From a virus, in the IMG/VR virus record IMGVR_UViG_3300021961_011268, positions 1 to 64,000 of that record: a stretch of DNA of 64,000 nt; one strand, given 5' to 3'. This document shows, piece by piece, positions 13,492 through 35,331 of this stretch; position 1 is the first letter of the stretch, and each line of letters begins with the position of its first letter. The position numbers and the translations under genes are program-made. Under the pieces are notes generated by a model that did no database searches, was not told the origin of the DNA, and worked only from the letters and a program-made list of their open reading frames with translations.

Positions 13492-14268
13492 ATGATAAGA
13501 CGACTAATAGCAGGTCCATGTCAGGCAGAAGACTATGATCTATCATATCAAATTGCAAAACACATGAAAGATATTTGTGACAAATATTCAATTGAATATT
13601 ATTTTAAAGCAAGTTTTGATAAGGCAAATCGTAGTCATATTGATGGTAAGCGTGGTCCTGGTCTTCACGAAACTCTTCATCAATTCAAGAAGCTGAAAAA
13701 AGATATACCAAATCTTAAGATATGTACAGACATTCATGAGTCTTGGCAAGCAAAAGAAGTTTGTGGATTTGTTGATATTATTCAGATACCAGCATTCCTT
13801 TGCCGTCAAACAGATTTAATTCAAGCAGCTTGTGACATTGGTGTTATTGTAAATATTAAAAAAGGACAATTCCTTTCACCAACCGATGTTCCAAATATTT
13901 TATCAAAGACTCGTGGCGAAGTCTGGATTACAGAACGTGGTACATGTTTTGGATATAATAATTTAGTAGTAGATTTTAATGGTATGCAATGGATGCTTAA
14001 GAATGTGAAAGCACCGCTTGTCTTTGATGTAACCCATTCAACACAAAAACCTGGTGGTAATGGTCAATCATCAGGTGGTAATCGAGAATATACACCAGGT
14101 TTATTCAAAGCAGCTCATGCAATCGGTGTTGAAAACTTTTTCCTTGAAGTACACCCAGATCCAGACAATGCACCAAGTGATGGACAAAATATGATGTATT
14201 TAAAAGATGTAGAACCATTATTAAATAACTTACAAGGTCAACTTCCTTGGCCTATGTGGATTGATTGA
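13492..14268 (+). CDS. kdsA: KDO-8-phosphate synthase, metal-dependent type
   Basis: Condenses arabinose 5-phosphate with PEP to KDO-8-phosphate, the first committed step to the inner-core LPS sugar KDO. Conserved segments include IAGPCQAE, YYFKASFDKANRS, TDIHESWQA, QIPAFLCRQTDL, KKGQFLSPTDV, FDVTHSTQ and EVHPDPDNAPSDG. Cys10 in AGPC stands where metal-dependent enzymes (Aquifex type) have their metal-binding Cys; the E. coli metal-free enzyme has Asn. Full length at 258 aa. First gene of a long chain of overlapping glycan genes. No phosphatase (kdsC) or isomerase (kdsD) is seen beside it, so these must come from the host. Confidence 0.93.
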   Translation: MIRRLIAGPCQAEDYDLSYQIAKHMKDICDKYSIEYYFKASFDKANRSHIDGKRGPGLHETLHQFKKLKKDIPNLKICTDIHESWQAKEVCGFVDIIQIPAFLCRQTDLIQAACDIGVIVNIKKGQFLSPTDVPNILSKTRGEVWITERGTCFGYNNLVVDFNGMQWMLKNVKAPLVFDVTHSTQKPGGNGQSSGGNREYTPGLFKAAHAIGVENFFLEVHPDPDNAPSDGQNMMYLKDVEPLLNNLQGQLPWPMWID

Positions 14269-15023
14269 TGAAAGACCGTATTAATTCTCTTTTTGCTATT
14301 TGTATTCCAGCTCGTTATGGATCAACACGATTTCCAGGTAAACCACTAGAAGATCTTGGTAATGGTAAAAATTTGATTCAGCACGTATATGATATTTGTG
14401 CCTCGACTGGTATCGATACTTATGTCTTGACTGATTCAATTGATATTATTAAATCTCTTGGTTCTAAACGTCGTACTATGATGACTATTAATAAACACGA
14501 AAATGGTACAAGTCGTTGTGCTGAATTTATGTATCGCCATCGTTATAATTCATATCGATATATTATTAATGTTCAAGGTGATATGGTTGATATAAGGCCT
14601 GATATGATTCAACAAATCGTTAATTATATTAGTAATCTTTACCTATTAAATGTTAGTGGTCAAATACCAGATGTTCTTAGCCTTTATACTGAAATGAAAC
14701 AAGAAGACCGTGAGAATCCTCACGTTGTTAAATGTATACATAACAATAATATATTAGCAAAAGCAATATGGTTCTTGAGAGCTCCGCTAGAGTATGGCAG
14801 TCAACATTTAGGAATCTACGGCTATACAAAGGATGCTCTATTAAACTATAATGAGCTTGATCGTACTGAGCACGAACAGATCGAATCGTTAGAGCAATTA
14901 AGATGGTGTGTTAATGATATAGATTTTAGGTTATTAAAAACAGATTATGATGGCCAAGAAATCAATACGCCTGAAGACTTAGAAAAATGGAAAGACATAA
15001 ATATTAAAGGTTATAATAAATGA
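14268..15023 (+). CDS. kdsB: CMP-KDO synthetase (3-deoxy-manno-octulosonate cytidylyltransferase)
   Basis: Activates KDO with CTP. The nucleotide-binding loop IPARYGSTRFPGKPL, the metal site region INVQGDMVDI, HLGIYGYTKDALL and the C-terminal ESLEQLRWCVN match KdsB; length 251 aa is typical. Start is ATG at 14268, sharing its A with the kdsA stop codon. Overlaps the cupin gene by 4 bases. With KdsA it lets the phage supply an activated KDO-like sugar for one of the glycosyltransferases downstream. A related ketosugar acid is possible. Confidence 0.9.
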   Translation: MKDRINSLFAICIPARYGSTRFPGKPLEDLGNGKNLIQHVYDICASTGIDTYVLTDSIDIIKSLGSKRRTMMTINKHENGTSRCAEFMYRHRYNSYRYIINVQGDMVDIRPDMIQQIVNYISNLYLLNVSGQIPDVLSLYTEMKQEDRENPHVVKCIHNNNILAKAIWFLRAPLEYGSQHLGIYGYTKDALLNYNELDRTEHEQIESLEQLRWCVNDIDFRLLKTDYDGQEINTPEDLEKWKDINIKGYNK

Positions 15024-15373
15024 TTGCTGGAAAAATATGGGGTACCACTGAGTTAATAGAACAAAATCATGCCTTGGAGTTTCATAGAATAACTATCAAA
15101 AAACGTGGCATTTGTTCTAAACATAAACATGAGGCAAAAACAAATGGCTTCTTTGTTGAATCAGGCAAGTTGCTCATAAGAGTATGGCAAAATGATTATG
15201 ACCTTGTTGATGAGACTATCCTTTATTCTGGAGATTATACAACTGTAAAGCCAGGAGTTTATCATCAATTTGAAGCATTAACAGATGTCATTGCATATGA
15301 ATTATATTGGGCTCCTCCTTTACAACACAACGACATACAACGAGAAACAGTAGGATATATTAAAAATGACTAA
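15020..15373 (+). CDS. Cupin-domain protein (sugar isomerase-like)
   Basis: Single cupin barrel: motif 1 CSKHKHEAKTNGFFVESGKL (two His and one Glu ligands) and motif 2 YSGDYTTVKPGVYHQFEAL (final His). Closest in shape to the type II mannose-6-phosphate isomerase C-terminal domain or sugar-nucleotide tautomerases, which work in surface sugar synthesis. The place right after kdsB suggests sugar metabolism. At 117 aa it is a stand-alone barrel. Reaction not determined. Confidence 0.75.
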   Translation: MIAGKIWGTTELIEQNHALEFHRITIKKRGICSKHKHEAKTNGFFVESGKLLIRVWQNDYDLVDETILYSGDYTTVKPGVYHQFEALTDVIAYELYWAPPLQHNDIQRETVGYIKND

Positions 15374-15662: not shown

Positions 15663-16473
15663 TAATCGTAAAGATATTCAAAAGATATGGAATGATTCAA
15701 AGCATAATATAATCAAAGCAAAGGGAACCATTGGTCTCGGCGATTGTATGTCTGCTTTGAATATAGCTCATTTTCGTTCTTTTATATTTGAAAAAAAGAT
15801 CACTCTTGAGAATCATTGGTATCATGATGAAGATTATCAATATCACTTTGAAGATCCAGAAACAATTATCGAAAAATTTGATTATTTTGCAAAATATTAT
15901 CAACCAGCAGATGTTGAAATAAAGCACATATTCAATTCAACAAATGAAGGTCTTTATAAACAACGTTATCAACACCATCGTGGTATTATTAAAAATAATG
16001 ATTATCGTGCATGGTCATTTAATGCGTCAATTGTAAATACTCCAATTGTAAAAAATAAAATTGTGATGTGGAGACAAACATTTAATGCTGATATACCAAA
16101 GAATTATAAAAGAATATTTGATAATGATGGTTGGAATTATATTGTTCAATCTTTACAAAAACAAGGATATAGTGTAGCTCAAATTGATTATCGAACTTCA
16201 ATTAGAGAAGTGATGTACCATATATCAACTTGTGAAGCTACAATTGGATATGAAGGAATGTTTCATTATGTTGCTAAAAATTTTTGGAAGCCAATGATTA
16301 TTTTTACACGAGATAATATTAGTAAATTACATACACCACACGCACTTCTTTTTTGTCGTTCAATTAAAAGACCATTTGATATGACATGTCTTGATAATTT
16401 TCCACCAATACTTGATATTGCTAAAAGTATGATAAATACAGCATATAAGAATATGATATTGGAAACAAAATGA
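15589..16473 (+). CDS. Putative GT-B glycosyltransferase (heptosyltransferase-like)
   Basis: N-terminal loop KAKGTIGLGDCMSALNIAHF resembles the GxGD start of GT9 enzymes, and the C-terminal CEATIGYEGMFHYVAKNFW then KPMIIF resembles the GT9 acceptor/donor site where a Gly-rich loop precedes a His. The start is uncertain: GTG at 15589 gives a 74-base overlap with the previous gene, but no in-frame ATG exists before 15748, which would cut the conserved loop; TTG 15631 is an alternative. It ends 4 bases into the radical SAM gene. Likely transfers a sugar onto a surface or core glycan. Confidence 0.6.
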   Translation: MVQLFKHKLIRLRNSLTIGNRKYYDNRKDIQKIWNDSKHNIIKAKGTIGLGDCMSALNIAHFRSFIFEKKITLENHWYHDEDYQYHFEDPETIIEKFDYFAKYYQPADVEIKHIFNSTNEGLYKQRYQHHRGIIKNNDYRAWSFNASIVNTPIVKNKIVMWRQTFNADIPKNYKRIFDNDGWNYIVQSLQKQGYSVAQIDYRTSIREVMYHISTCEATIGYEGMFHYVAKNFWKPMIIFTRDNISKLHTPHALLFCRSIKRPFDMTCLDNFPPILDIAKSMINTAYKNMILETK

Positions 16474-17459
16474 AAATAGATAGAGCAGTAATTGAAATAG
16501 CCGGTGGATGTAATTATAGTTGTGATATGTGTCCACAATCAAATCCAGGTCGTGATTCACGCTTCTTGAGAAATATGGGACTCGAAGAATTTGAAAAGAA
16601 TGTGGCTGATTGTGCTCAACATGGATTAAGAGTCGTCAATCTTGATGGTTCTGGTGAAGCAACACTTCTTCATAACTTACCAGATTATATTCGAATTGTA
16701 AAGAAATATGGAGCAAAAGCATTTATCTTTTCAAATGGTTTACGTATGCGTGGAAAATTCATGCAAGAATGTGTTGATGCTGGTCTTGACTTCTATCGAT
16801 TCTCTGTGATTGGTTCAACACCAAAAGAATATAGTAAATGGATGAATCGTAGTGAACGTACTTATGATATTATATGGAATAATATAAAAGAAATGCAAAG
16901 ATATATTCATCTTTCAGATTCGCAATGTATTGTTTCAACGTATCATCTTATTTGTAATAATAATGATCCAGAAGAACTCAATCGATATAAAGCAAAGCAT
17001 GCAGAAATCAATCGGATTGTTCCAGGAATTAAAACAGAAATATGGAAAATGCATAATTGGAGTGGTGTATATGATAATGAACAAAAAAGAAGTGGTACTA
17101 TCAAGACGTGCGGAAGACCTTTTAGCCCAGACGTCGTTATCAGAGCAGGAGGCCTTGATGGAAAAACTGGAGCAGTTGCACCTTGTTGCCAAGTCCTTGG
17201 ACAAGACGAAAAAGCAGTCTTAGGTCATACATCTGAAAATACAATTGAAGAAATATGGAATGGTCTAGAATACACTCAATTAAGAGAAGACCATATTAAT
17301 GGAGAATATCCAGATTATTGTAAAGGATGTGACTTTTTGATCGATGATCCTGAAGTTCTTGTTTATACTAATTTTGATAGATCTCAATATCATATGCATG
17401 GTACAGAATTTAATTTAAATGATTATCGTGATGTTAGACAATATTTACCACCGCTTTAA
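16470..17459 (+). CDS. Radical SAM enzyme with SPASM-type C-terminal cluster
   Basis: The [4Fe-4S] SAM motif is CNYSCDMC (Cys14, Cys18, Cys21), followed by GSGEATLLHNL (SAM glycine motif), IFSNGLRM and YRFSVIGST strands of the partial TIM barrel. The C-terminal 110 residues carry further cysteines (TCGRPF, APCCQVLG, YCKGCDF) as in SPASM/Twitch domains that hold auxiliary clusters. SPASM enzymes modify peptides or sugars by radical chemistry. It is embedded between glycosyltransferases with a 4-base overlap upstream, so sugar modification such as epimerisation or dehydration is the likely role. Substrate unknown. Confidence 0.85.
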   Translation: MKIDRAVIEIAGGCNYSCDMCPQSNPGRDSRFLRNMGLEEFEKNVADCAQHGLRVVNLDGSGEATLLHNLPDYIRIVKKYGAKAFIFSNGLRMRGKFMQECVDAGLDFYRFSVIGSTPKEYSKWMNRSERTYDIIWNNIKEMQRYIHLSDSQCIVSTYHLICNNNDPEELNRYKAKHAEINRIVPGIKTEIWKMHNWSGVYDNEQKRSGTIKTCGRPFSPDVVIRAGGLDGKTGAVAPCCQVLGQDEKAVLGHTSENTIEEIWNGLEYTQLREDHINGEYPDYCKGCDFLIDDPEVLVYTNFDRSQYHMHGTEFNLNDYRDVRQYLPPL

Positions 17460-20597: not shown

Positions 20598-20951
20598 ATG
20601 ATTATAAAACAAAACATCAACGAATATACAGTAGAAGAATTAATAACTATTAAAGAAGAAGCTTTAAAAAATGCTAGAGAAACAGTCGAAAAGCATCTCT
20701 TACAAAATGGTGAATACGGTTATTGTGGCTTTGCTTGGACTAATATATATGATATTAAAGGTAGTACGAAACTAGGACGTAATATGAAAAAAGCAGGTTT
20801 TGAAAAGGATTATTCTGGAAATTTTAGTTTATGGAACCCAAGTCAATCATATACACAATGTATGTATACAAAAGAAATAGGTGCAGAGGCTGCAGCTGCA
20901 ATATTTAGAAAAGCTGGTTTTGACAGTTATGCACATTCAAGAGCAGATTAA
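20598..20951 (+). CDS. Conserved phage hypothetical, 117 aa
   Basis: Helical N-terminus (YTVEELITIKEEALKNAR) then a Gly/aromatic segment CGFAWTNIYDIKGSTKLGR, FSLWNPSQSYTQ and a C-terminal helix AAAAIFRKAGFDSYAHSR. The GFAWTNIY-KGSTKLG pattern recurs in many unrelated phages as a small conserved protein of unknown role. Own SD AAAAGGA at 20581-20587. Confidence 0.6.
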   Translation: MIIKQNINEYTVEELITIKEEALKNARETVEKHLLQNGEYGYCGFAWTNIYDIKGSTKLGRNMKKAGFEKDYSGNFSLWNPSQSYTQCMYTKEIGAEAAAAIFRKAGFDSYAHSRAD

Positions 20952-20964
20952 AGGATAATATCAA

Positions 20965-21423
20965 ATGATTAAATATATTAGTCATCGTGGTAATTTAACT
21001 GGGCCTGAACCAGAAAAAGAAAATAGAATTTCTACAGTTGAAAACGTTTTACATCTAGGATTTGATTGTGAGATTGATGTTCGATTTATTGATAATAAAT
21101 TTTATCTAGGTCATGATGAAGCACAAGAAGAAGTATCAATTAAATGGTTAAATCAAAGAGGTCTATGGATCCATTGTAAAAATATTGAAGCTTTGATTGA
21201 ACTTCAGCAATATAAATATATTAATAGTTTTTGGCATCAAGAAGATCAATATACACTTACAAGTAATGGATATATATGGGTTTATCCAACTGAATATATA
21301 CCTATGAATAGCGGTAATCGTATTATTGCAAATTGTGCAAATGTAATGGTTAATGATGGTCGATATGCAGGTTACTGTTCTGATTATATACAACATTTAA
21401 AGGAAGAATTTAGTGCATTATAG
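20965..21423 (+). CDS. Glycerophosphodiester phosphodiesterase-like protein, short form
   Basis: The GDPD catalytic signature is present: SHRGN (His7, Arg8), KENRIS, CEIDVR (Glu36, Asp38) and LGHD (His50). At 152 aa it is far shorter than typical GDPD barrels (about 240 aa), so the second half of the barrel is reduced, yet the metal and acid/base residues remain. It overlaps the RuBisCO-like gene by 11 bases, indicating coupled production. It may cleave a phosphodiester or serve as a sugar-phosphate lyase/isomerase in the same pathway; this is inference. Confidence 0.7.
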   Translation: MIKYISHRGNLTGPEPEKENRISTVENVLHLGFDCEIDVRFIDNKFYLGHDEAQEEVSIKWLNQRGLWIHCKNIEALIELQQYKYINSFWHQEDQYTLTSNGYIWVYPTEYIPMNSGNRIIANCANVMVNDGRYAGYCSDYIQHLKEEFSAL

Positions 21424-22477
21424 AGTAACGTACGAAATTGAAAGTGATGATATACCTTTAGCAGCTCATAATATTGCTATTGGTCAAAGTATTGGTAATC
21501 CAAATGTTCGTTCAGAAATTGAGATGGCTGACAACATTAAAGAAATGGAAGCAATCGTCGAAAAGATTGAAGGTAATAAAGTAATAATTGCCTTTCCTTT
21601 GAAAGCGTGGGATTGGCCAAACATATCGCAACTTTTATGTACGATACAAGGTGGTCAGTCAGATATTGAACTTGTTCATCGATGTCGAGTGATTGATATT
21701 GAAGGTTTAGATTATATGAATCAACCAGTTCTTGGTATGAAGGCAATGAAAGAAAGATGCGATGCAACAGATCGTCCTCTCTTTGGTAGTATTGTAAAGC
21801 CAAAATCAGGTCTCACTGAATTACAACTTATCAAAATTGTTGAACAAATGGTTGATGGTGGTACGGATTTCATTAAAGAAGATGAGATCATGGCAAACAA
21901 TTCTTATTTACCTCTTCAAAAACGTGTTGATATTATTAGTGAAATGTTAGATAAGAAAAACTCAAATGTTGTTTATTCTTATTGCGTGAATGCTGATCCA
22001 CTTGAATTGATTGAAAATCTTGATATTGTCAAGCAAGGCGGTGGTGATTGCGTTCATATTAACTTCTGGTCTGGACTTGGTGCATATACAACAAGCAATC
22101 AAAAAGGACTTATTACTCACTATCAAAGGTCGGGCATTCGTATTCTAACCGACCCGGATAATCGATTTAGTGTTTCTTGGCCAGTTGTAGTCAAACTTGG
22201 TATTATGGCAGGTATCGATACGATGCACATTGGAATGCTTGGTGGTTATTATCCAGAAGGAGAATCAGAAGAAGAAACACTTGAGGCATTATCACTTTGT
22301 CAAAAGTATGATCGTGTTGCAGCCCTCTCATGTGGTATGAATCCAGATTTTGCACGAGAAATACGTGGTAATATTGGAAATAATTGGATGGCTAATATAG
22401 GTGGATGGCTACATACAGGTGATAGTATATATCAAAAAGTTTATGAAATGAGAAAAAGTCTAGAGGAAACAATATGA
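21413..22477 (+). CDS. RuBisCO-like protein (form IV-type, large-subunit fold)
   Basis: A complete RuBisCO large-subunit fold can be followed: N-terminal VTYEIESDDIPLAAHNIAIG, SIVKPKSGLT (Lys129, Lys131), TDFIKEDEIM with Lys155, Asp157 and Glu158 equal to the carbamylated Lys201, Asp203 and Glu204 of RuBisCO, then HINFWSGLGAY, MHIGMLGGYYPEG, ALSCGMNP and NIGGWLH phosphate loop. The loop-6 Lys334 and His294 positions appear replaced (Tyr279; TDPDNR region), so CO2 fixation is unlikely while metal-dependent enolisation stays possible. 354 aa, shorter than usual (400 or more). Start is GTG at 21413 with AGGAAG upstream; it overlaps the GDPD-like gene and, by 4 bases, the nucleotidyltransferase gene. 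Likely acts on a phosphorylated sugar or sugar acid for glycan synthesis. Confidence 0.9.
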   Translation: MHYRVTYEIESDDIPLAAHNIAIGQSIGNPNVRSEIEMADNIKEMEAIVEKIEGNKVIIAFPLKAWDWPNISQLLCTIQGGQSDIELVHRCRVIDIEGLDYMNQPVLGMKAMKERCDATDRPLFGSIVKPKSGLTELQLIKIVEQMVDGGTDFIKEDEIMANNSYLPLQKRVDIISEMLDKKNSNVVYSYCVNADPLELIENLDIVKQGGGDCVHINFWSGLGAYTTSNQKGLITHYQRSGIRILTDPDNRFSVSWPVVVKLGIMAGIDTMHIGMLGGYYPEGESEEETLEALSLCQKYDRVAALSCGMNPDFAREIRGNIGNNWMANIGGWLHTGDSIYQKVYEMRKSLEETI

Positions 22478-23181
22478 AAATAATTTTGCCAATGGCGGGA
22501 AATGGTAGTCGATTTTTTGATGCCGGATATTCTCTACCAAAACCTTTGATTGATGTCAAAGGAAAACCGATGTTTTCTCGTGTTCTTGATAATTTAAATA
22601 TTACAAAGGATGATGATATTCATTTCATTGTTCGTATGGAACATGTACTTAATTATCAAATACAAAATCAGATTCATGACTATTATCCAGATGCTCATAT
22701 CCATGCATTAAGTGAAATGAATGAAGGGGCTTGTCAAACTGTTTTGACAGCAATCGATCAATATAGTGAATTAGATTTTATGGTAGCAAATTGTGACCAA
22801 ATTATGATATGGGAAAGGCCTGATTTTAATTTTAAAATTGGTGGTACTATCATGACGTTTACACCCGATCATGATAAACCAATACATTCATACGTAAAAT
22901 GCAATGATAAAGGGCATGTGATTGAACTTGCTGAAAAACGTATGATTAGTAATATTGCAACAACTGGTGTTTACCATTTTGGATCTCAAAAAGATTTCTA
23001 TATTGCAGCACATCAAATGATGGAAGCAAATGATCGTACAAATGGTGAATTCTATCTTGCTCCTGTATATAATTATTTAAATAAACCAATTGAAATATAT
23101 CATTGCGAAAAATTCATTGGAATGGGTACACCTCAAGAATTAGAAGAATTGAAACAAACTGATTATTATAAGAACTTATGA
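22474..23181 (+). CDS. Sugar nucleotidyltransferase
   Basis: N-terminal PMAGNGSRFFDAGYSLPKPL is the NTP-binding loop of the nucleotidyl transferase family, followed by DFMVANCDQIM (metal Asp) and TTGVYHFGSQKDF, FIGMGTPQELEE. It activates a sugar or polyol phosphate with CTP, UTP or dTTP. Starts 4 bases inside the RuBisCO-like gene, so the product of that enzyme (or of the GDPD-like protein) is a candidate substrate. 235 aa, typical. Nucleotide specificity cannot be read. Confidence 0.85.
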   Translation: MKIILPMAGNGSRFFDAGYSLPKPLIDVKGKPMFSRVLDNLNITKDDDIHFIVRMEHVLNYQIQNQIHDYYPDAHIHALSEMNEGACQTVLTAIDQYSELDFMVANCDQIMIWERPDFNFKIGGTIMTFTPDHDKPIHSYVKCNDKGHVIELAEKRMISNIATTGVYHFGSQKDFYIAAHQMMEANDRTNGEFYLAPVYNYLNKPIEIYHCEKFIGMGTPQELEELKQTDYYKNL

Positions 23182-23912
23182 AACTTGCTATTTGTGTAAC
23201 TGGACAATATAGACCAACTGTAAGAAATCCATCAGACGCAAAATTTAATTTAGATCGCTTTCAACAGATCTTTTATGATGCTGATGTATATTATCACACA
23301 TACGATAAAAATGTAGATTCATTACCAAATTGGATAAATCGCAATCAAGTTTATTCATGGCCTGAACCAGAAAATCATTACCATCCAGTAAATGATACGC
23401 CTTTTTTGTGTCCACATAAAAAATTTCATGATTATCGAAAAAGAAATATTTTAACACATAAGACTGCTCATGCCCATAAGCAAATACTTTCTTATGCAAA
23501 TTTAATTGAACAAATGACATTACCTCAATATCATAGTTATGATATATTGATTCGTATACGTTGGGATACCGCAATCAATATGACTCGTCAAGATATTGAA
23601 AAGTATTTTGAATATGTAATGAATGAAGGTCCTGTTGGATTTATGACAAGGGCAAATCGTGGACCAAAATATGAAAATGGAAATACCGTTATATTGCCAA
23701 AAGATAGTACCGCTATAGATGATGATTGGTATTGTTATTTACCTGATACAATGATACTTCATAGTCCAAAACATTTTGATCCAAAATATGTTCAAGAACT
23801 TTTTTCAAAACGACAATTATGGCCAGCAGAATGGGGATGGTGGCAAACAATGTCAGAACCTTATAATAATAATCATTTATCTGTCCATGGTGGTGTTATT
23901 ATTGCAAGATAA
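23178..23912 (+). CDS. Putative glycan-synthesis protein (xGQYR family), 244 aa
   Basis: Begins LAICVTGQYRPTVRNPSD, a pattern seen in capsule-synthesis proteins of GT-A type that start ISGQxR, with IRIRWDTAINMTRQDIEKYF in the middle as acidic donor site, and a C-terminal HSPKHFDPKYVQELF region. It overlaps the nucleotidyltransferase by 4 bases and ends the second glycan operon block. Assignment as glycosyltransferase is plausible but not proven. Confidence 0.5.
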   Translation: MKLAICVTGQYRPTVRNPSDAKFNLDRFQQIFYDADVYYHTYDKNVDSLPNWINRNQVYSWPEPENHYHPVNDTPFLCPHKKFHDYRKRNILTHKTAHAHKQILSYANLIEQMTLPQYHSYDILIRIRWDTAINMTRQDIEKYFEYVMNEGPVGFMTRANRGPKYENGNTVILPKDSTAIDDDWYCYLPDTMILHSPKHFDPKYVQELFSKRQLWPAEWGWWQTMSEPYNNNHLSVHGGVIIAR

Positions 23913-24024: not shown

Positions 24025-24639
24025 ATGAGTGAGTTAAGAAAATCATTTGATAGAGCTGGATCTGATAAAGGCTGGAAACATGGTTATGAAAGGGCTTATG
24101 AAGAAACCTTTGAACCAATTCGAAATGAACCATTGAATATACTTGAAATTGGTATTTTACATGGTGAATCACTTGCTGCTTGGGTTGACTACTTTCCGAA
24201 TGCACAAATTTATGGCATTGATACATTCGAAAGAGTTGCACCAAAAGATATTAATATATTGAATCATGAACGTGTACATTGGTTAAAAGGTATGAGCCAA
24301 ACAATTAATACAAAAGAATTAATAAAAAAAACTTGGCCTGATGTTCAATTTGATATTATTATTGATGATGGCCTACATACGCCAATTGCGAATGGTGCCA
24401 CATTTGAAAATCTGATTGAATTTTTAAAAGATGACGGATATTATTTTATTGAAGACATATATCCACTTGATATTCTTACTGAAAAAGAATGGCAAAATCG
24501 TTGGATCACAACACACCAAAAAGATTTTACGATGATAAATTGGGTAAGATTTACAAATGCATTATTTGGATATAAAGAAAAACATTATGATCTTCGAGAT
24601 CGATATGCTGATTCTTATATTATAAGGATATCGAAATAA
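24025..24639 (+). CDS. Class I SAM methyltransferase (macrocin-type/MycE-like)
   Basis: Characteristic LNILEIGILHGESLAAWVDY then NAQIYGIDTFERV (motifs I and II) and FDIIIDDGLHTPIANGATF, the metal-binding DDG-H pattern of sugar O-methyltransferases such as MycE and TylF. 204 aa. SD GAGG at 24011-24014, fitting the ATG at 24025. It is the first gene of a run of glycosyltransferases and very likely methylates a sugar hydroxyl. Confidence 0.8.
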   Translation: MSELRKSFDRAGSDKGWKHGYERAYEETFEPIRNEPLNILEIGILHGESLAAWVDYFPNAQIYGIDTFERVAPKDINILNHERVHWLKGMSQTINTKELIKKTWPDVQFDIIIDDGLHTPIANGATFENLIEFLKDDGYYFIEDIYPLDILTEKEWQNRWITTHQKDFTMINWVRFTNALFGYKEKHYDLRDRYADSYIIRISK

Positions 24640-25373
24640 TGAAAGCTTTTATTATTACAATGAAGGATAATTCTGAATCTGTTGCACTGTCCAATCGTTG
24701 TGTTGAATCAATAAAAAATTCGAATACACTACTTGATGTTTATATATCAAATGGAGTTGTACCAGAAACACTTTCAGAAACACTTCATTCGTATTTTCGA
24801 AATTCATCTATACCAAATATATATTATACATATCCAAAAACTCCTGATGAAAATCGTCATGATATTAAATCAGGTTTAAAACTTTCAGCCTATCAAACAG
24901 TTGATTTGGATAAAAGAGTTTCTTGCCTAATGTCTCATTATGTATTATGGCATTATGCAATTAAAAATAATGAGACAATTATGATACTTGAACATGATGC
25001 GTGTTTTTATCCAAAGAAATTCAATGTTAATATAAAATTTTCTGGTTCTATTCTTGGTCTTAATGATCCAAGAGGAGCAACAAGAAAAGCAAATGTATAT
25101 CATGAGAAGCTTGCAATTGGCAATCCAGAATCAAAACCAATTCCAAGAGAGATCCCTTGGATTGATGATCATATGGTACCTCAAGGTCTTGCTGGAAATT
25201 CAGCTTATATTATTAAACCAAAAGGTGCTCAAATATTATGTGAATTAATTGCTGAACATGGATTATGGCCGAATGATAGTATCATGTGTAAACAATTAAT
25301 GCCAGGTGAATTGCAAACAGTTTATCCATATGTCACATATGTAAAACAAACTAAGTCATTTACATCATCTTAA
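24639..25373 (+). CDS. GT25-like glycosyltransferase
   Basis: AFIITMKDNSESVALSNRCVES start, KLSAYQTVDLDKRVSCLMSHY then VLWHYAIKN and IMILEHDACFYP match family 25 (SHxxLW, acidic EHD site), with GNSAYIIKPKGAQIL near the C-terminus. A related protein follows at 25383 and another is at 18090, so the phage has three members for different linkages. Overlaps the methyltransferase stop by one base. Confidence 0.75.
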   Translation: MKAFIITMKDNSESVALSNRCVESIKNSNTLLDVYISNGVVPETLSETLHSYFRNSSIPNIYYTYPKTPDENRHDIKSGLKLSAYQTVDLDKRVSCLMSHYVLWHYAIKNNETIMILEHDACFYPKKFNVNIKFSGSILGLNDPRGATRKANVYHEKLAIGNPESKPIPREIPWIDDHMVPQGLAGNSAYIIKPKGAQILCELIAEHGLWPNDSIMCKQLMPGELQTVYPYVTYVKQTKSFTSS

Positions 25374-27438: not shown

Positions 27439-27927
27439 ATGACAAATGAAATTAGAAATAAAGAAAATCAAGTAATTTTCACTTATGAAGAAAAATGCTT
27501 AAATCAAGCTAACTTAGTTGGTGCTAACTTAGTTTGGGCTAACTTAGTTGATGCTGACTTATCTGGTGCTAACTTATCTGGGGCTAACTTACATGGTGCT
27601 AGCTTATTTAGGGCTGACTTATCTGGGGCTGACTTATCTGAAGCTGACTTAGTTTACGCTAATTTAGCTGGGGCTAATTTATCTGGCGCTAATTTATCTG
27701 GGGCTAACTTAGTTGGTGCTAACTTATTTATGGCTGACTTATCTGGGGCTGACATATCTGGGGCTGACATATCTGGTGCTGACTTATTTATGGCTAATAT
27801 AGGTGGTATTACGGCAAATGCCGATCAATTAGTAGCATCATTTAAAATTCCAATTGATTTGATTTTAGATATTCAGCCTGATATTCGTATTGTTGAAGAA
27901 GAATATCGTGATACTGAGGAAAAATAA
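27439..27927 (+). CDS. Pentapeptide-repeat protein
   Basis: Residues about 22-125 consist of some 20 consecutive A(N/D)LxG-type pentapeptides (for example [19 protein letters not shown]), which fold as a right-handed quadrilateral beta-helix. Such proteins can mimic B-DNA (Qnr, MfpA bind gyrase) or serve as scaffolds. The C-terminal 35 residues are an acidic non-repeat tail ([14 protein letters not shown]). The coding DNA is itself a tandem repeat, prone to copy-number change. Behind a strong early-type promoter, so a host topoisomerase or takeover target is conceivable. Confidence 0.92.
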
Positions 27928-30517: not shown

Positions 30518-31333
30518 ATGCGTATATTCTTAAAAATTGTATTGTATACAATTATATTATCAATTATTTCAGGATGCGCATTGAATAACTTTAAATATGA
30601 TAAGATGCGACAAGATATGCCTATTGAGGAAATATTACCTACGCATGATGCGTTAAAGTCAATAAATCCTCCTGATAGAATGCCAGTTGTCGCGGTATAT
30701 CAATTTGATGATAAAACGGGTCAAAGAAAACAGGTTGATTCGTCTGCTTTATTTAGCACAGCAGTTTCACAAGGAGCTGAAACAATGTTGATTGATGCAT
30801 TGAAAACTGCTGGAAATGGACAATGGTTTCGAGTTGTTGAAAGAATAGGAATAGATCATTTAGTAAGAGAAAGACAAATAGTAAGAAGCACAAGACAAGC
30901 TTATAATGATAATGAAGAATTGGCACCAATGCTTTTTGCGGGTATGATACTTGAAGGTGGTATTATTGGATATGATACAAATATAGAAACAGGTGGAGCA
31001 GGAGCAAGGTATTTAGGAATAGGTGGACAAACACAATATCGTAAGGATTTTATTACTGTTTCTTTAAGAGGAATAAGCACACTAACTGGAGAAGTATTAT
31101 TAAATGTCCAAACGTCAAAAACAGTATTATCGGTGTCAAATGGATTTGATGTTTTTAAATTTGTTGATTTAGATACAAAACTAATAGAAGTAGAAAACGG
31201 CATGACGGAAAATGAAAGTATAACTCGATCGACAAGATCATGCATTGAAGCAGCTGTTTTAGCACTTATTAAACAAGGTGATTCTCGTAACCTTTGGAAA
31301 ATACGAGATAAAAAGGATAAAAGTAATGAATAA
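30518..31333 (+). CDS. csgG: CsgG-like curli secretion channel lipoprotein
   Basis: Outer-membrane nonameric export pore. Lipobox ISGC with Cys20; body matches CsgG: PVVAVYQFDDKTGQRKQ, LFSTAVSQGAETMLIDALK, WFRVVERIGIDHLVRERQI, EGGIIGYDTNIETGGAGARY, GIGGQTQYRKDFITVSLRG, GEVLLNVQTSKTVLS and the C-terminal LWKIRDK. 271 aa versus 277 in E. coli. In the constriction loop Phe56 is kept (ALFSTAV), whereas the Tyr51 and Asn55 positions appear to be changed to Asp and Leu, so gating may differ. CsgE, the usual adaptor, is not encoded nearby. The next gene starts 8 bases before the stop. Confidence 0.95.
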   Translation: MRIFLKIVLYTIILSIISGCALNNFKYDKMRQDMPIEEILPTHDALKSINPPDRMPVVAVYQFDDKTGQRKQVDSSALFSTAVSQGAETMLIDALKTAGNGQWFRVVERIGIDHLVRERQIVRSTRQAYNDNEELAPMLFAGMILEGGIIGYDTNIETGGAGARYLGIGGQTQYRKDFITVSLRGISTLTGEVLLNVQTSKTVLSVSNGFDVFKFVDLDTKLIEVENGMTENESITRSTRSCIEAAVLALIKQGDSRNLWKIRDKKDKSNE

Positions 31334-32090
31334 CATATTAGAACTAATAACGTTTATTATATGGTTTATTATCTCTATTGTTATTATGACATTTATTTTG
31401 GGATATGCAAGTGCGCATGCGCAAACTTCATCAGATAATGAGATATATTTAAATCAAAGTGGAGATACAATCACTTTAAATATAAATCAAATAGGATATG
31501 GAAATAAATTTGGTGGAAGTGTTTCATCAGGTGTTGTAGCAACAGATCTAACTTTGACTGGTTCATCACTTGATATTGATTTGACTCAAGATGGTAATAG
31601 TAACCAATTTCTAGGTAGTATTATTTTTGATAATAGTTTCCTTGATTTTACGACTACTGGTGATACCAATATTCTTACATTAGATATTGGAAGCACTGGA
31701 TCTGCAGATGATTCAAATCTTTTCTTGGATTTTACGGGAGATAATAATACACTTGATCTGAATATTGGAAGTGTAGCATCTGCCGAAAGATTAGATTTTG
31801 ATTTAAACGTAATTGGTGGATCAAATATCTTTGATGTTGATATTGAAGCTGATGATGTGACATGGCAAGTTGATATTACTGGTTCAGGAAATGATTTCCT
31901 TTCAAATATCAAGGATGGTGCATATAACTCATTGACTATTGATTTTACTGGGGATAATGGTGATATTGATATTAATCAATGGTCAGGTTCATGTCCACAA
32001 GGTGTAACATCTTGCTTTGGAGTAATTGATGCAACGATTAATTCAGATAATGCAATTATACAAATTAACCAAAAAGATACTGTCGAATAG
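31326..32090 (+). CDS. Curlin-repeat-like exported protein, 254 aa
   Basis: ATG 31326 overlaps the csgG stop. Signal sequence with a long hydrophobic stretch (IIWFIISIVIMTFILGY) cut near SAHAQ. The mature chain is Gly/Asn/Asp/Ser-rich beta sequence with curlin-type Gln-Gly-Asn spacing at the start (YLNQSGDTITLNINQIG, then NKF) and looser repeats afterwards (TQDGNSNQFLGS, TGDNNTLDLNIGS, TGSGNDFLSN). No aromatic-rich globular domain. A likely secretion substrate of the CsgG pore, analogous to CsgA/CsgB, but with fewer ideal repeats. Two Cys near the C-terminus (SCPQGVTSCFG). Confidence 0.7.
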   Translation: MNNILELITFIIWFIISIVIMTFILGYASAHAQTSSDNEIYLNQSGDTITLNINQIGYGNKFGGSVSSGVVATDLTLTGSSLDIDLTQDGNSNQFLGSIIFDNSFLDFTTTGDTNILTLDIGSTGSADDSNLFLDFTGDNNTLDLNIGSVASAERLDFDLNVIGGSNIFDVDIEADDVTWQVDITGSGNDFLSNIKDGAYNSLTIDFTGDNGDIDINQWSGSCPQGVTSCFGVIDATINSDNAIIQINQKDTVE

Positions 32091-33201
32091 TCTTATATAT
32101 TTTTTAATATTCTTTTCTCAAGGTTATGCCGCTGTTGAAAAGAATATTGGAAATATTATTGAAGTATCTGGAACAAATGGTATTACATCAATTGATGGTG
32201 TAACTAAGGTTGGCACTAAAGATTTAGATATCTATTTTCGTGATACTATTGAAACAGTTCAAGGTAAAATGAAAATTGATTTTGTTGATGAAACAAAATT
32301 GTCATTAACAGAGCATTCTAAAGTCCTTATTGATGAATACTATTTTGATCCAAATCCATCAAAATCAAAAATGACTATGAGTTTTATTCAAGGAACGGCA
32401 AGATTTGCAACTGGTAAATTAGGTCTTGTTCCAAAGGAGAATATTATTATTAATACACCAACAGCAGTTGTTGGCGTTCGTGGTACAGATTTCACAACAA
32501 CAGTAGATGAACTTGGTCGATCATTAATTATTCTATTGCCAGATGAGGAATGTACAATTGATGGTGATTGCAATCCATCAGGAGAAATTACTGTTACAAA
32601 TGCAGGAGGCGTTGTCACATTGACTGAAGCATATTCAGCAACAATGGTTACATCCTTTGATAATGCTCCAATGCAACCAGTAATACTTGAAAATATTACC
32701 ATTAACATTATTGATAATATGTTTATTGTGACACCACCAAACGAAATAGAACAATCAATAGAGGAAGAAGAATCTAATAATCGGCCATCATATGATTTAC
32801 TCGACTTTAATGATTTGGATATAAATTTATTAAGTGAAGATTGGGATGAAGAAGATCTTTCGATAAATGAAGTGGATATTAATTATCTTGATGGTGATTT
32901 TTTACAAAATATTCTTGATGATTTGCTATTACAACAAGATTATTTAAAAGAATCAAGTCAATCAACAAGTTATGATATACAAGGCACAAATATTGGTTTT
33001 GATTCACAAACAAACTATTATACCTTTATTGACATTGGTGAGGGTACAATTCGATTTTATCGAATCGTTGGTGGTATAATAAATATAGTAACAAAAATAG
33101 ATAGTAACATAACATTGGATACTGAAAATGATGGTAAAAAGAACTTTATTACTAATGGTGATGGTCAATCTGTTGTTCTTACAATCCGCCAAGGCAATTG
33201 A
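32029..33201 (+). CDS. Exported FecR-domain protein
   Basis: N-terminal hydrophobic segment (SNSLIYFLIFFSQGYA) as signal peptide, then GNIIEVSGTNGITSIDG and a FecR barrel with the diagnostic NTPTAVVGVRGTDFTT motif; the C-terminal 150 residues are very acidic (EEEESNN, DLLDFNDLDINLL). FecR domains in the periplasm pass signals or scaffold surface assemblies. Start at ATG 32029 is uncertain, as it overlaps the previous gene by 62 bases; TTG 32026 is just upstream. It overlaps the next curlin-like gene by 74 bases. In bacteria FecR domain proteins are often next to CHASE2 cyclases, as here. Confidence 0.8.
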   Translation: MQRLIQIMQLYKLTKKILSNSLIYFLIFFSQGYAAVEKNIGNIIEVSGTNGITSIDGVTKVGTKDLDIYFRDTIETVQGKMKIDFVDETKLSLTEHSKVLIDEYYFDPNPSKSKMTMSFIQGTARFATGKLGLVPKENIIINTPTAVVGVRGTDFTTTVDELGRSLIILLPDEECTIDGDCNPSGEITVTNAGGVVTLTEAYSATMVTSFDNAPMQPVILENITINIIDNMFIVTPPNEIEQSIEEEESNNRPSYDLLDFNDLDINLLSEDWDEEDLSINEVDINYLDGDFLQNILDDLLLQQDYLKESSQSTSYDIQGTNIGFDSQTNYYTFIDIGEGTIRFYRIVGGIINIVTKIDSNITLDTENDGKKNFITNGDGQSVVLTIRQGN

Positions 33202-33484
33202 TCAAGATCAGAATAGTGTTTTTATTAATCAAATAGGTGATGATCTTAATTTGAATCTTAATCAAACTGGATATAATAATAATATTGAGATTGACACAGA
33301 TACGAATAGTAATAACATTTCAGTAGATCAAACAGGTTCTGGCCATGATGTAATATTAAATTTATATGGAACACAACCAAATAATGTTTCTGTTTCACAA
33401 TCAAGTACCACACCTCAAAGTTATTCAATTGAAACATATTGTATTACTATCGGAGGCTGCTCTATTTCAGTAGATCAACAATGA
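33128..33484 (+). CDS. Short curlin-repeat-like exported protein, 118 aa
   Basis: Starts with ATG ATG at 33128/33131 inside the FecR gene. Signal peptide RTLLLMVMVNLLFLQSAKA, then VFINQIGDDLNLNLNQTGYN, NNISVDQTGSGHDVILNL and NNVSVSQSS, which are good curlin-type repeats (N-Q-x-G-x4-5-N). It is shorter than the 31326 product and ends with a C-x7-C pair (CITIGGCSISVDQQ). By analogy with CsgB it could be a nucleator. It overlaps the cyclase start by 4 bases. Confidence 0.7.
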   Translation: MMVKRTLLLMVMVNLLFLQSAKAIDQDQNSVFINQIGDDLNLNLNQTGYNNNIEIDTDTNSNNISVDQTGSGHDVILNLYGTQPNNVSVSQSSTTPQSYSIETYCITIGGCSISVDQQ

Positions 33485-35331
33485 AATATATCACATCAAT
33501 ATTCTCTTGCATTGCAGTCCTTATACTAGGATTATTTTTAAAAGTCACAGATCCATATATTATTGAAAGACTTCGTTTAATTAATTTTGACCAATATCAA
33601 CAATTAATACCACAACATAATAATAAAGATATAACACTTATTAATATTGGTGAGGAATCATTAAATCAATATGGTCAATGGCCTTGGCCTCGTTCTATTT
33701 TTGCTCAAGTCATTTCTGATTTAAGATCAGCAAATGCTGGAATTATTGTATTTAATATTATGTTTCCTGAGAGCGATAGATTTGGACAAGATGAAATTTT
33801 AAAATCATGGATAGATGGTAATGGTATTATTCTATCACAAACTGGTTCGCCAAAAGGAAGATCAGATTCAGCACCGTTTGTTGGCACTGTTGTTCTTGGA
33901 AGTGGTGATCCATATCAGTTTGTAGATGAATATCCAGGTATTGTTACAAATATAGAAGAATTTGAATCTTCTGCTTGGGGTGTTGGTGTATTAAACTCAA
34001 AACAAGAAATTGATAATGTAACAAGAAGAATGCCATTATTGATTCAATCAAATAATCAATTATATCCATCATTAAGTATGGAAATACTGAGAGCAACGGT
34101 TGAAGAAAAGTCATATACAATAAAAGTAGAACCAACTGGTATTGAAAATTTTAGAATACCTCCATATGAACCAATACAAACTGACGCGTCTGGTTCAATA
34201 TGGATTAATTGGTCAAATAAATTTAAATCATACGAATATGGTAAAGACACTCTGCCAGATCTAAATGGTAATACGGTGATTGTTGGTCTTACTGCAGAAG
34301 GTCTTGTTCCATTAGTACCTACACCTCGTGGAGCTCTTTATCCACACGAGTTACAAGCTTCAGTATTAGCGGATCTAATGGACTCAAGCACATCAATTAC
34401 TCGACCAAATTGGATGCCTATTGCTGAGATTTTATTAATTACAATTACAAGTATACTACTTCTTCTTTCTGTATATTATTTACCAATAGTATATTCGCTT
34501 GTATGTTCATTGTTTTTATTATCAATAAACATGTTAATACCGACATATCTATGGATGGAATCATTTTATTTGATGGATATGTCATTTGGTATAATCTTAA
34601 CAGTTATTCTTTTTGCACATTCAAGTTTTAATAATTTCTATAAGCAATTTAAATTACGACAACAAATTAAGAAACAATTTGAACACTATCTAGATCCAAG
34701 ACAGGTGAAGATACTACAGAAAAATCCTGGGTTATTGAAACTTGGTGGTGAACGAAAAGAAATGACTTATTTGTTTATGGATATTATTGGCTTTACACCA
34801 ATATCAGAATTCTATAAGAACAAGAATGACCCTGAAGGTTTAGTTGAATTAGTGAATGAATTCCTTGATGAGATGACAAACATTATATTGAAGAATGGTG
34901 GCATGATCGATAAGTTCATGGGAGACTGTATCATGGCAATATTCAATGCACCGATCGATATGCCTAATCATGCTGAGATGGCTATTAAGTCTTGTATCGA
35001 AATCGAAGACAAAGTCAAAGAACTGAAAGCCAAATATAAAGAACGTGGTTTACCTGATATCAATGTCGGAACAGGAGTCAATACCGGTACGGCAATCATC
35101 GGTAATATGGGATCAACAACAAGATTCGACTTTAGTGTGATAGGCGATGCGGTGAACTTGGCAGCAAGACTTGAAGCAACTGCTGGACGTGGCGATTACA
35201 AGAAATATCCTACAATATATTCTTCTATGACAAAAGAACAATTGCCTGATTCAATCAAGAGTAAACATATCGGTGATATCAAAGTGAAGGGAAAAGAAGA
35301 CGTAATTGAAATATATACTATTTCTTCTTAA
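33481..35331 (+). CDS. CHASE2-domain class III adenylate/guanylate cyclase
   Basis: Start ATG 33481 (ATGA overlap). Residues 1-21 are a membrane anchor; about 30-310 form a periplasmic CHASE2 sensor (QWPWPRSIFAQVISDL, FNIMFPESDRFG); about 313-380 hold three membrane helices; from 420 is the cyclase: GGERKEMTYLFMDIIGFT (Asp434), KFMGDCIMAIF (Asp482), FDFSVIGDAVNLAARLE (Asn559, Arg563). The Lys426/Asp550 pair fits ATP rather than GTP. All catalytic metal and transition-state residues are present, so it should make cAMP. The catalytic part is less AT-rich than the sensor part. Ends 14 bases into the convergent minus-strand gene. Confidence 0.93.
   Translation: MKYITSIFSCIAVLILGLFLKVTDPYIIERLRLINFDQYQQLIPQHNNKDITLINIGEESLNQYGQWPWPRSIFAQVISDLRSANAGIIVFNIMFPESDRFGQDEILKSWIDGNGIILSQTGSPKGRSDSAPFVGTVVLGSGDPYQFVDEYPGIVTNIEEFESSAWGVGVLNSKQEIDNVTRRMPLLIQSNNQLYPSLSMEILRATVEEKSYTIKVEPTGIENFRIPPYEPIQTDASGSIWINWSNKFKSYEYGKDTLPDLNGNTVIVGLTAEGLVPLVPTPRGALYPHELQASVLADLMDSSTSITRPNWMPIAEILLITITSILLLLSVYYLPIVYSLVCSLFLLSINMLIPTYLWMESFYLMDMSFGIILTVILFAHSSFNNFYKQFKLRQQIKKQFEHYLDPRQVKILQKNPGLLKLGGERKEMTYLFMDIIGFTPISEFYKNKNDPEGLVELVNEFLDEMTNIILKNGGMIDKFMGDCIMAIFNAPIDMPNHAEMAIKSCIEIEDKVKELKAKYKERGLPDINVGTGVNTGTAIIGNMGSTTRFDFSVIGDAVNLAARLEATAGRGDYKKYPTIYSSMTKEQLPDSIKSKHIGDIKVKGKEDVIEIYTISS

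Follow-up and report, generated by a model that had tools for sequence, protein, structure and literature searches.

The window analysed here, 64,000 nucleotides long, takes up the greater part of a virus record of 66,084 bases. It contains a chain of overlapping genes that includes a gene for a RuBisCO-like protein (RLP) and one for a sugar-phosphate nucleotidyltransferase (NTPT). The genes, their sequence signals and two neighbours are as follows.

20950..20955, + strand: Shine-Dalgarno-like AAAGGA of the GDPD-like gene (sequence)
20965..21423, + strand: GDPD-like gene, 152 amino acids, a compact barrel (open reading frame, alignment, AlphaFold, PHROG 34507)
21400..21404, + strand: Shine-Dalgarno-like AAGGA of the RLP gene, lying within the GDPD-like gene (sequence)
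21413..22477, + strand: RLP gene, 354 amino acids, GTG start (Pfam, NCBIfam, residue map, tree)
22463..22467, + strand: Shine-Dalgarno-like GAGGA of the NTPT gene (sequence)
22474..23181, + strand: NTPT gene, 235 amino acids, lone-domain form (Pfam NTP_transferase, PHROG 3980, 4evw)
23178..23912, + strand: GTa, a putative GT-A-fold glycosyltransferase, 244 amino acids, the fourth overlapping gene (overlap, AlphaFold, VIA-align)
24025..24639, + strand: methyltransferase of the glycan island (Methyltransf_24, Pfam)
24639..25373, + strand: glycosyltransferase of family 25 of the glycan island (Pfam)

An earlier note on this DNA had described a three-gene cassette at 20965-23181 in which neighbouring genes overlap by 11 and 4 bases. 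The open reading frames lie precisely there: the GDPD-like and RLP genes share 11 bases, and the RLP and NTPT genes share 4 in an overlap of the ATGA type. Since GTa overlaps the NTPT gene by a further 4 bases, the overlapping chain consists of four genes. The GTG start of the RLP gene is consistent with the starts of its relatives. The overlaps make co-transcription likely, and they suggest that the cassette genes are co-translated. Promoter and terminator scans of the window stayed at chance level, as did the occurrence of the T4 late motif TATAAATA. PADLOC returned no match for the four cassette proteins.

The cassette lies within a glycan island, where Pfam recognises GT8-like, GT25, FkbM and other methyltransferase genes. 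The island also encodes a radical SAM-SPASM protein (16470-17459). A second set of overlapping sugar genes is found at 13492-15373, with a KdsA/DAHP-synthase-like protein (DAHP_synth_1), a KdsB-like cytidylyltransferase (CTP_transf_3) and a cupin; it probably serves a CMP-linked ulosonic acid. At 27439-27927, a pentapeptide-repeat protein (106 bits) adjoins a gene resembling a 5'-nucleotidase-like HAD.

T4-like structural genes can be read by eye in the window, and Pfam places curli genes beside this structural module. The curli stretch (30518-35331) comprises CsgG (170.8 bits), FecR and curlin repeats, and is immediately followed by a gene for a CHASE2-guanylate cyclase. A curli operon has been described in pelagimyophages, the T4-like phages of SAR11, whose glycosyltransferases have been proposed to alter the O-chain of the host; RuBisCO is unmentioned in that work (PMC7029224). 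By gene content, the contig resembles the genome of a marine pelagimyophage of the T4-like kind.

The RLP matches the Pfam family RuBisCO_large with an E-value of 4.9e-26. It is a RuBisCO-like protein in the broad sense (form IV), that is, a sequence of the superfamily in which catalytic residues are exchanged, as judged from Pfam and a residue map. The alignment behind this map combined 37 RLPs of the same clade, 17 bona fide RuBisCOs and 15 further RLPs. All 37 clade members keep K175, K177, K201, D203, E204, S379, G381, G403 and G404 (RuBisCO numbering). All 37 also carry the exchanges E60 to G, T65 to N, N123 to G, H294 to Q and K334 to Y, while R295 is K, R or S and H327 is H or Q. In the RLP of the window the retained residues include K129/K131 and K155/D157/E158, and Y279 stands where RuBisCO has K334. 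The 15 other RLPs compared retain K334, unlike the viral clade.

In RuBisCO, K201, D203 and E204 are the carbamate and metal ligands. Residues of the retained set bind the metal and form the enediolate, and K334, the loop-6 lysine required for carboxylation, handles CO2. Because the former are kept and the latter is lost, enolisation is a plausible activity for the protein and carboxylation an implausible one. The RLP is thus probably an enolase or isomerase of sugar phosphates, and no carboxylase. The joint loss of K334 and T65 points to a changed P1 phosphate site and to a possible monophosphate substrate. The gene is under constraint: dN/dS values of about 0.03-0.22, with dS saturated for most pairs, show purifying selection.

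Automatic annotation of viral rbcL implies a true, CO2-fixing RuBisCO. In landfill viruses, for instance, rbcL-like genes that cluster with "RbcL-like" proteins have been placed under CO2 fixation (PMC12607003), and the highest NCBIfam scores of the RLP here do come from form III RuBisCO models. These scores reach at most one quarter of the RuBisCO cut-offs, however, and with five catalytic positions exchanged in every clade member, carbon fixation is extremely improbable as the function of this protein.

A clade profile separates the group from other members of the superfamily. Members score at least 525 bits (557 for the RLP of the SAR11 genome G175), and the best RuBisCO or RLP outside the clade reaches 147 bits among 299 Pseudomonadota and 176 bits in Patescibacteria. 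In a tree made by a quick method, without bootstrap and without a named deep-Ykr reference, the 37 clade members are split from 32 cellular RuBisCO and RLP sequences by a branch with SH-aLRT 100. The RLP also falls far below every named RuBisCO, MtnW and OiaX cut-off of NCBIfam. By sequence, then, it belongs to one separate, virus-dominated clade. A tblastn search with two queries found no relatives in named phage records.

Another model for the RLP is that of OiaX (3-oxo-isoapionate-4-phosphate decarboxylase). An OiaX-like decarboxylase or carboxyl-transfer enzyme could shorten or branch a sugar acid ahead of its activation. Among the matches listed for a plasmid collection, only OiaX-like proteins were found, with annotated OiaX the best at about 30% identity, and the metal-binding triad is common to both. 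Three differences make this model improbable: the RLP reaches 91.5 bits against an OiaX cut-off of 700, OiaX and its relatives lie on the other side of the fully supported branch, and the lysine at position 334 is replaced by tyrosine in the viral clade.

A third candidate is an enolase or isomerase of methionine salvage, carried as a metabolic gene with unrelated neighbours. The models of MtnW, the DK-MTP-1P enolase, do give real scores, and the RLP of R. rubrum is partnered with a cupin (PMC4958253), a gene that often lies beside the viral RLP as well. These scores, 56.5 and 41.5 bits, are far under the respective cut-offs of 409 and 513.6, and the RLP neighbourhoods examined contain no recognised salvage genes. 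Cupins are also found in NTPT loci that lack an RLP. A salvage role is very improbable.

The NTPT matches Pfam NTP_transferase with 31.3 bits (cut-off 21.2), and its nearest solved relative in the PDB is 4evw (E 2.8e-16). The AlphaFold model of GTa has a pLDDT of 89.7 and aligns in VIA-align to 5ggf with Z 12.6, among GT-A glycosyltransferases and nucleotidyltransferases. Since the GT-A fold is common to both kinds of enzyme, GTa is a candidate glycosyltransferase.

The GDPD-like protein matches no Pfam family at E of 0.1 or less, and the copies in two other loci (L095 and L096) have no Pfam match at 0.05. A PDB sequence search gave matches at chance level only. The earlier note had pointed out that His7, Glu36, Asp38 and His50 are retained; these residues are invariant across 21 relatives, along with R8, G9, E19 and N20. 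The AlphaFold model has a pLDDT of 91. Foldseek gave no match for it at E of 0.001 or less (the best was 7e0v, at 8.3e-3), so a second look by VIA-align was needed. This aligned 142 of the 152 residues to 1o1z with Z 12.2 and an rmsd of 2.9, and most of the top rows were GDPDs. The predicted structure thus indicates a GDPD barrel reduced to about 150 residues. Like full-length GDPDs such as T. maritima TM1621 (1o1z), the protein has the fold, the HRG, E-x-D and H motifs and the C-terminal G-x-C-[TS]-D motif. It differs from them in length, as they have 218 residues or more, in being unmatched by the Pfam GDPD models, and in its tie to NTPT genes.

Evidence that these genes work together can be sought in their recurrence. 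A scan of viral contigs gave 165 stretches encoding RLP relatives, from which 80 loci (38-79% identical) were kept, and bacterial genomes gave three RLP loci. In the nearer half of the loci, gene maps show an RLP-NTPT-GTa layout. In the more distant half the layout is NTPT-cupin-RLP, with the GDPD nearby. Most viral cassettes, like that of the window, are located among glycosyltransferases, which fits the surface-glycan pathway that the earlier note had suggested as possible.

The island is mosaic and the order of genes differs from locus to locus, as would be expected if the genes had come together by chance in a rapidly changing part of a phage genome. Adjacency was compared with 2000 permutations of gene order in 64 distinct RLP loci; the counts, which start from window-like peptides, rest on simple ORF calling and on clustering by single linkage, with two kinds of cupin lumped and many loci cut by contig ends. 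An NTPT gene is found no more than three genes from the RLP in 53 of 59 NTPT-bearing loci (permutation mean 21.4, maximum 35). The same holds for the cupin in 31 of 35 loci (mean 13.7, maximum 24) and for the GDPD in 23 of 26 (mean 10.0, maximum 19). GT25 genes near the RLP showed no enrichment over shuffled gene orders. With NTPT and cupin adjacency above every permutation, and with the trio found again in SAR11 and Patescibacteria, chance association is highly improbable.

In the SAR11 genome G175, a 232-kb contig carries the genes in the order GDPD-NTPT-RLP in the midst of polysaccharide genes. By eye, the surroundings of the trio include flippase/polymerase-like and sugar epimerase genes, and Pfam confirms the epimerase. 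A metagenome-assembled genome of Patescibacteria has GDPD-cupin-RLP, with the NTPT gene divergent and adjoining. The RLP clade is rare in bacteria: it occurs in two of 197 Pelagibacterales and, at a clade-level score, in one of 286 genomes of the phylum of the Patescibacteria seed. Beyond the seeds it was absent from samples of 398 Pseudomonadota and of 247 genomes of the phylum of the Bacteroidota seed. A phage-type cassette with phage-like neighbours was also seen on a 142-kb contig binned as Sphingobacteriales (JAAXIF010000028.1), which may be a misbinned phage contig.

The three genes are thus grouped in other viruses and in two bacterial lineages, and the possibility raised earlier, that they are never found together elsewhere, falls away. 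The trio proposed earlier does not hold as a unit, however. RLP, NTPT and GDPD are all present in 25 of the 64 distinct RLP loci, and 32 RLP loci have no GDPD within the fetched flanks. A scan seeded with the GDPD gave at least 485 confirmed relatives, and 86 GDPD loci were read (80 viral, the remainder reference loci). An NTPT was found in 75 of the 86 and an RLP in 10. The GDPD gene tracks the NTPT, not the RLP, and the steadier associations are the NTPT-GDPD pair and an NTPT-RLP pair often joined by the cupin.

Three versions of the NTPT occur, one on its own, one with a fused HAD_2 domain and one with a fused RpiB. In a comparison of loci whose NTPTs are distinct, the lone form is present in 64 of 64 RLP loci and a fused form in none, while RLP-less loci mostly have HAD-NTPT or NTPT-RpiB. 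Fisher's exact test on rounded counts, ignoring relatedness, gives p of 4e-26. Mapped on the tree of NTPTs, the presence of the RLP requires five changes, at least two of them forced by starred branches, so the pattern reflects few independent events.

In the NTPT-RpiB fusions (L139:5530-6687, L159:5534-6694 and L171:4549-5706), the RpiB domain scores 118.7 bits in Pfam, and genes for a KdsC-like HAD and a PfkB-like kinase lie upstream. Such loci possibly represent a complete viral pathway of sugar activation. Cupins are present in the RpiB and HAD variants too, and the idea that the cupin depends on the RLP was dropped for this reason.

A simple exchange of the RLP for a phosphomutase was also considered. 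Five distinct loci (of the L040-L046 and L056 type) hold an RLP together with a HAD of the PMM type, and the fused HAD domain matches the phosphatase TM_1254 and beta-phosphoglucomutases alike. Both observations weaken the idea that the RLP merely takes the place of a mutase. In the lineage of these loci, which also includes L058, the RLP, cupin and NTPT genes are accompanied by a HAD of the eukaryotic phosphomannomutase type (Pfam PMM) and by SGNH-like and radical-SAM-like genes; the lineage includes a contig of 306 kb.

In Pelagibacterales, the GDPD occurs in 10 of 197 genomes: eight with HAD-NTPT, one with NTPT and RLP, and one with neither. The alternation can thus be observed within a single bacterial order. 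The eight (L219-L226) are SAR11 genomes with a compact pair of GDPD and HAD-NTPT. In L222 and L224 the pair lies between gyrB-like and lepA-like genes. Because several of these pairs are situated among housekeeping genes, that setting does not indicate glycans.

In an alternative explanation, the cassette acts on phospholipid head groups or another small phosphodiester. The GDPD would be central, and the NTPT, with the RLP or a HAD, would process the released product. Known GDPDs free glycerol 3-phosphate from glycerophosphodiesters, GDPD-NTPT is the most widespread of the pairs, and in three SAR11 genomes (L222, L223 and L224) it stands alone among housekeeping genes, by eye far from polysaccharide genes. 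Against this stand the glycosyltransferases around the window cassette and most viral ones, and the flippase/polymerase-like and epimerase genes around the trio of G175. On balance the phosphodiester alternative is unlikely, although it is the strongest of the competing explanations.

The preferred explanation, to which we give somewhat better than even credence, is a sugar-activation cassette of a T4-like phage, in which a non-carboxylating RLP, an NTPT and glycosyltransferases serve the surface glycan of the host. Our reading is that the cassette has interchangeable front ends, the RLP being one of them, and takes part in the remodelling of surface glycans. The shared core would be the NTPT, the GDPD and often the cupin, and the sugar phosphate would be supplied by an RLP, a HAD or RpiB (with kinase and HAD). 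The RLP, metal-dependent and non-carboxylating, would convert a sugar phosphate via an enediolate to an isomer or epimer. The NTPT would then couple the phosphorylated product to a nucleotide, and the GT-A protein and adjacent glycosyltransferases would add the residue to the host glycan. The GDPD-like protein would carry out a step common to every NTPT variant, either cleavage or transfer of a phosphodiester. What the sequences themselves show is the gene order with its conservation and recurrence, the kept catalytic lysines and metal ligands, the lost carboxylation residues, and the alternation of the RLP with the HAD and RpiB fusions. The reaction and its direction, the connection of the RLP through the NTPT with a glycosyltransferase, and a glycan as the final product are inferred. 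The activated building block suggested by the earlier note fares well in one respect, since an NTPT beside sugar-phosphate chemistry fits a nucleotide-linked compound; its other part, the trio as the natural unit that makes it, does not stand.

RpiB acts via an enediol. As RpiB and the RLP would both proceed through enediols, the most likely task of the RLP is to provide the NTPT with a sugar phosphate by isomerisation or epimerisation.

A more specific proposal can be drawn from the deep-Ykr RLP of R. rubrum, which has a cupin partner and converts 5-methylthioribulose 1-phosphate to 1-methylthioxylulose 5-phosphate by a carbonyl shift (PMC4958253). If that reaction were reversed on an ordinary ketose 5-phosphate, the phosphate would come to lie at C1, ready for activation. 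The viral RLP would thus shift the carbonyl of a ketose phosphate, turning a 5-phosphate into a 1-phosphate with the phosphate itself unmoved, and the NTPT would produce a nucleotide-linked ketose or unusual sugar in a pathway spread mainly by viruses. This proposal is tentative, and we hold it to be possible rather than probable. By description, the two proteins are alike in being non-carboxylating members of the superfamily with likely enediolate chemistry on a ketose phosphate. They differ in their company: the viral RLP occurs with a nucleotidyltransferase and glycosyltransferases, and the R. rubrum protein in sulfur salvage. The cupin often adjoins the viral RLP, but also occurs without it.

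Related arrangements can be found in the capsule-type sugar clusters of cyanophages (Kyanoviridae). As in the cassette, a short GDPD adjoins genes for a nucleotidyltransferase, a HAD, a kinase or an isomerase, and the glycan clusters of Synechococcus phages hold the same GDPD. Unlike the cassette, no RLP was found in these clusters, and the one NTPT checked with Pfam (L085) is an NTPT-HAD fusion. Another likeness is to activation of the NDP-heptose type, which uses an isomerase, a C1 kinase, a phosphatase and a nucleotidyltransferase. The RpiB variant is alike, with an isomerase, a PfkB kinase, a KdsC-like HAD and the NTPT, whereas the RLP variant has neither kinase nor phosphatase.

A literature search, largely without subscription papers, found no report of an RLP with nucleotidyltransferase or nucleotide-sugar genes in viruses. 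The GOS study listed 65 RuBisCO homologues outside all known groups (PMC1821046), and the viral RLP clade is, by description only, a candidate source of such unplaced sequences from ocean surveys. Viral "rbcL" calls may not signify viral carbon fixation. Because RLP, HAD and RpiB alternate next to one nucleotidyltransferase, a few sugar phosphates would be enough for a direct test of the function. The recurring cassette suggests a new route to building blocks of cell-surface sugars, and if this is true, the RuBisCO superfamily would gain a role in the synthesis of sugar nucleotides.
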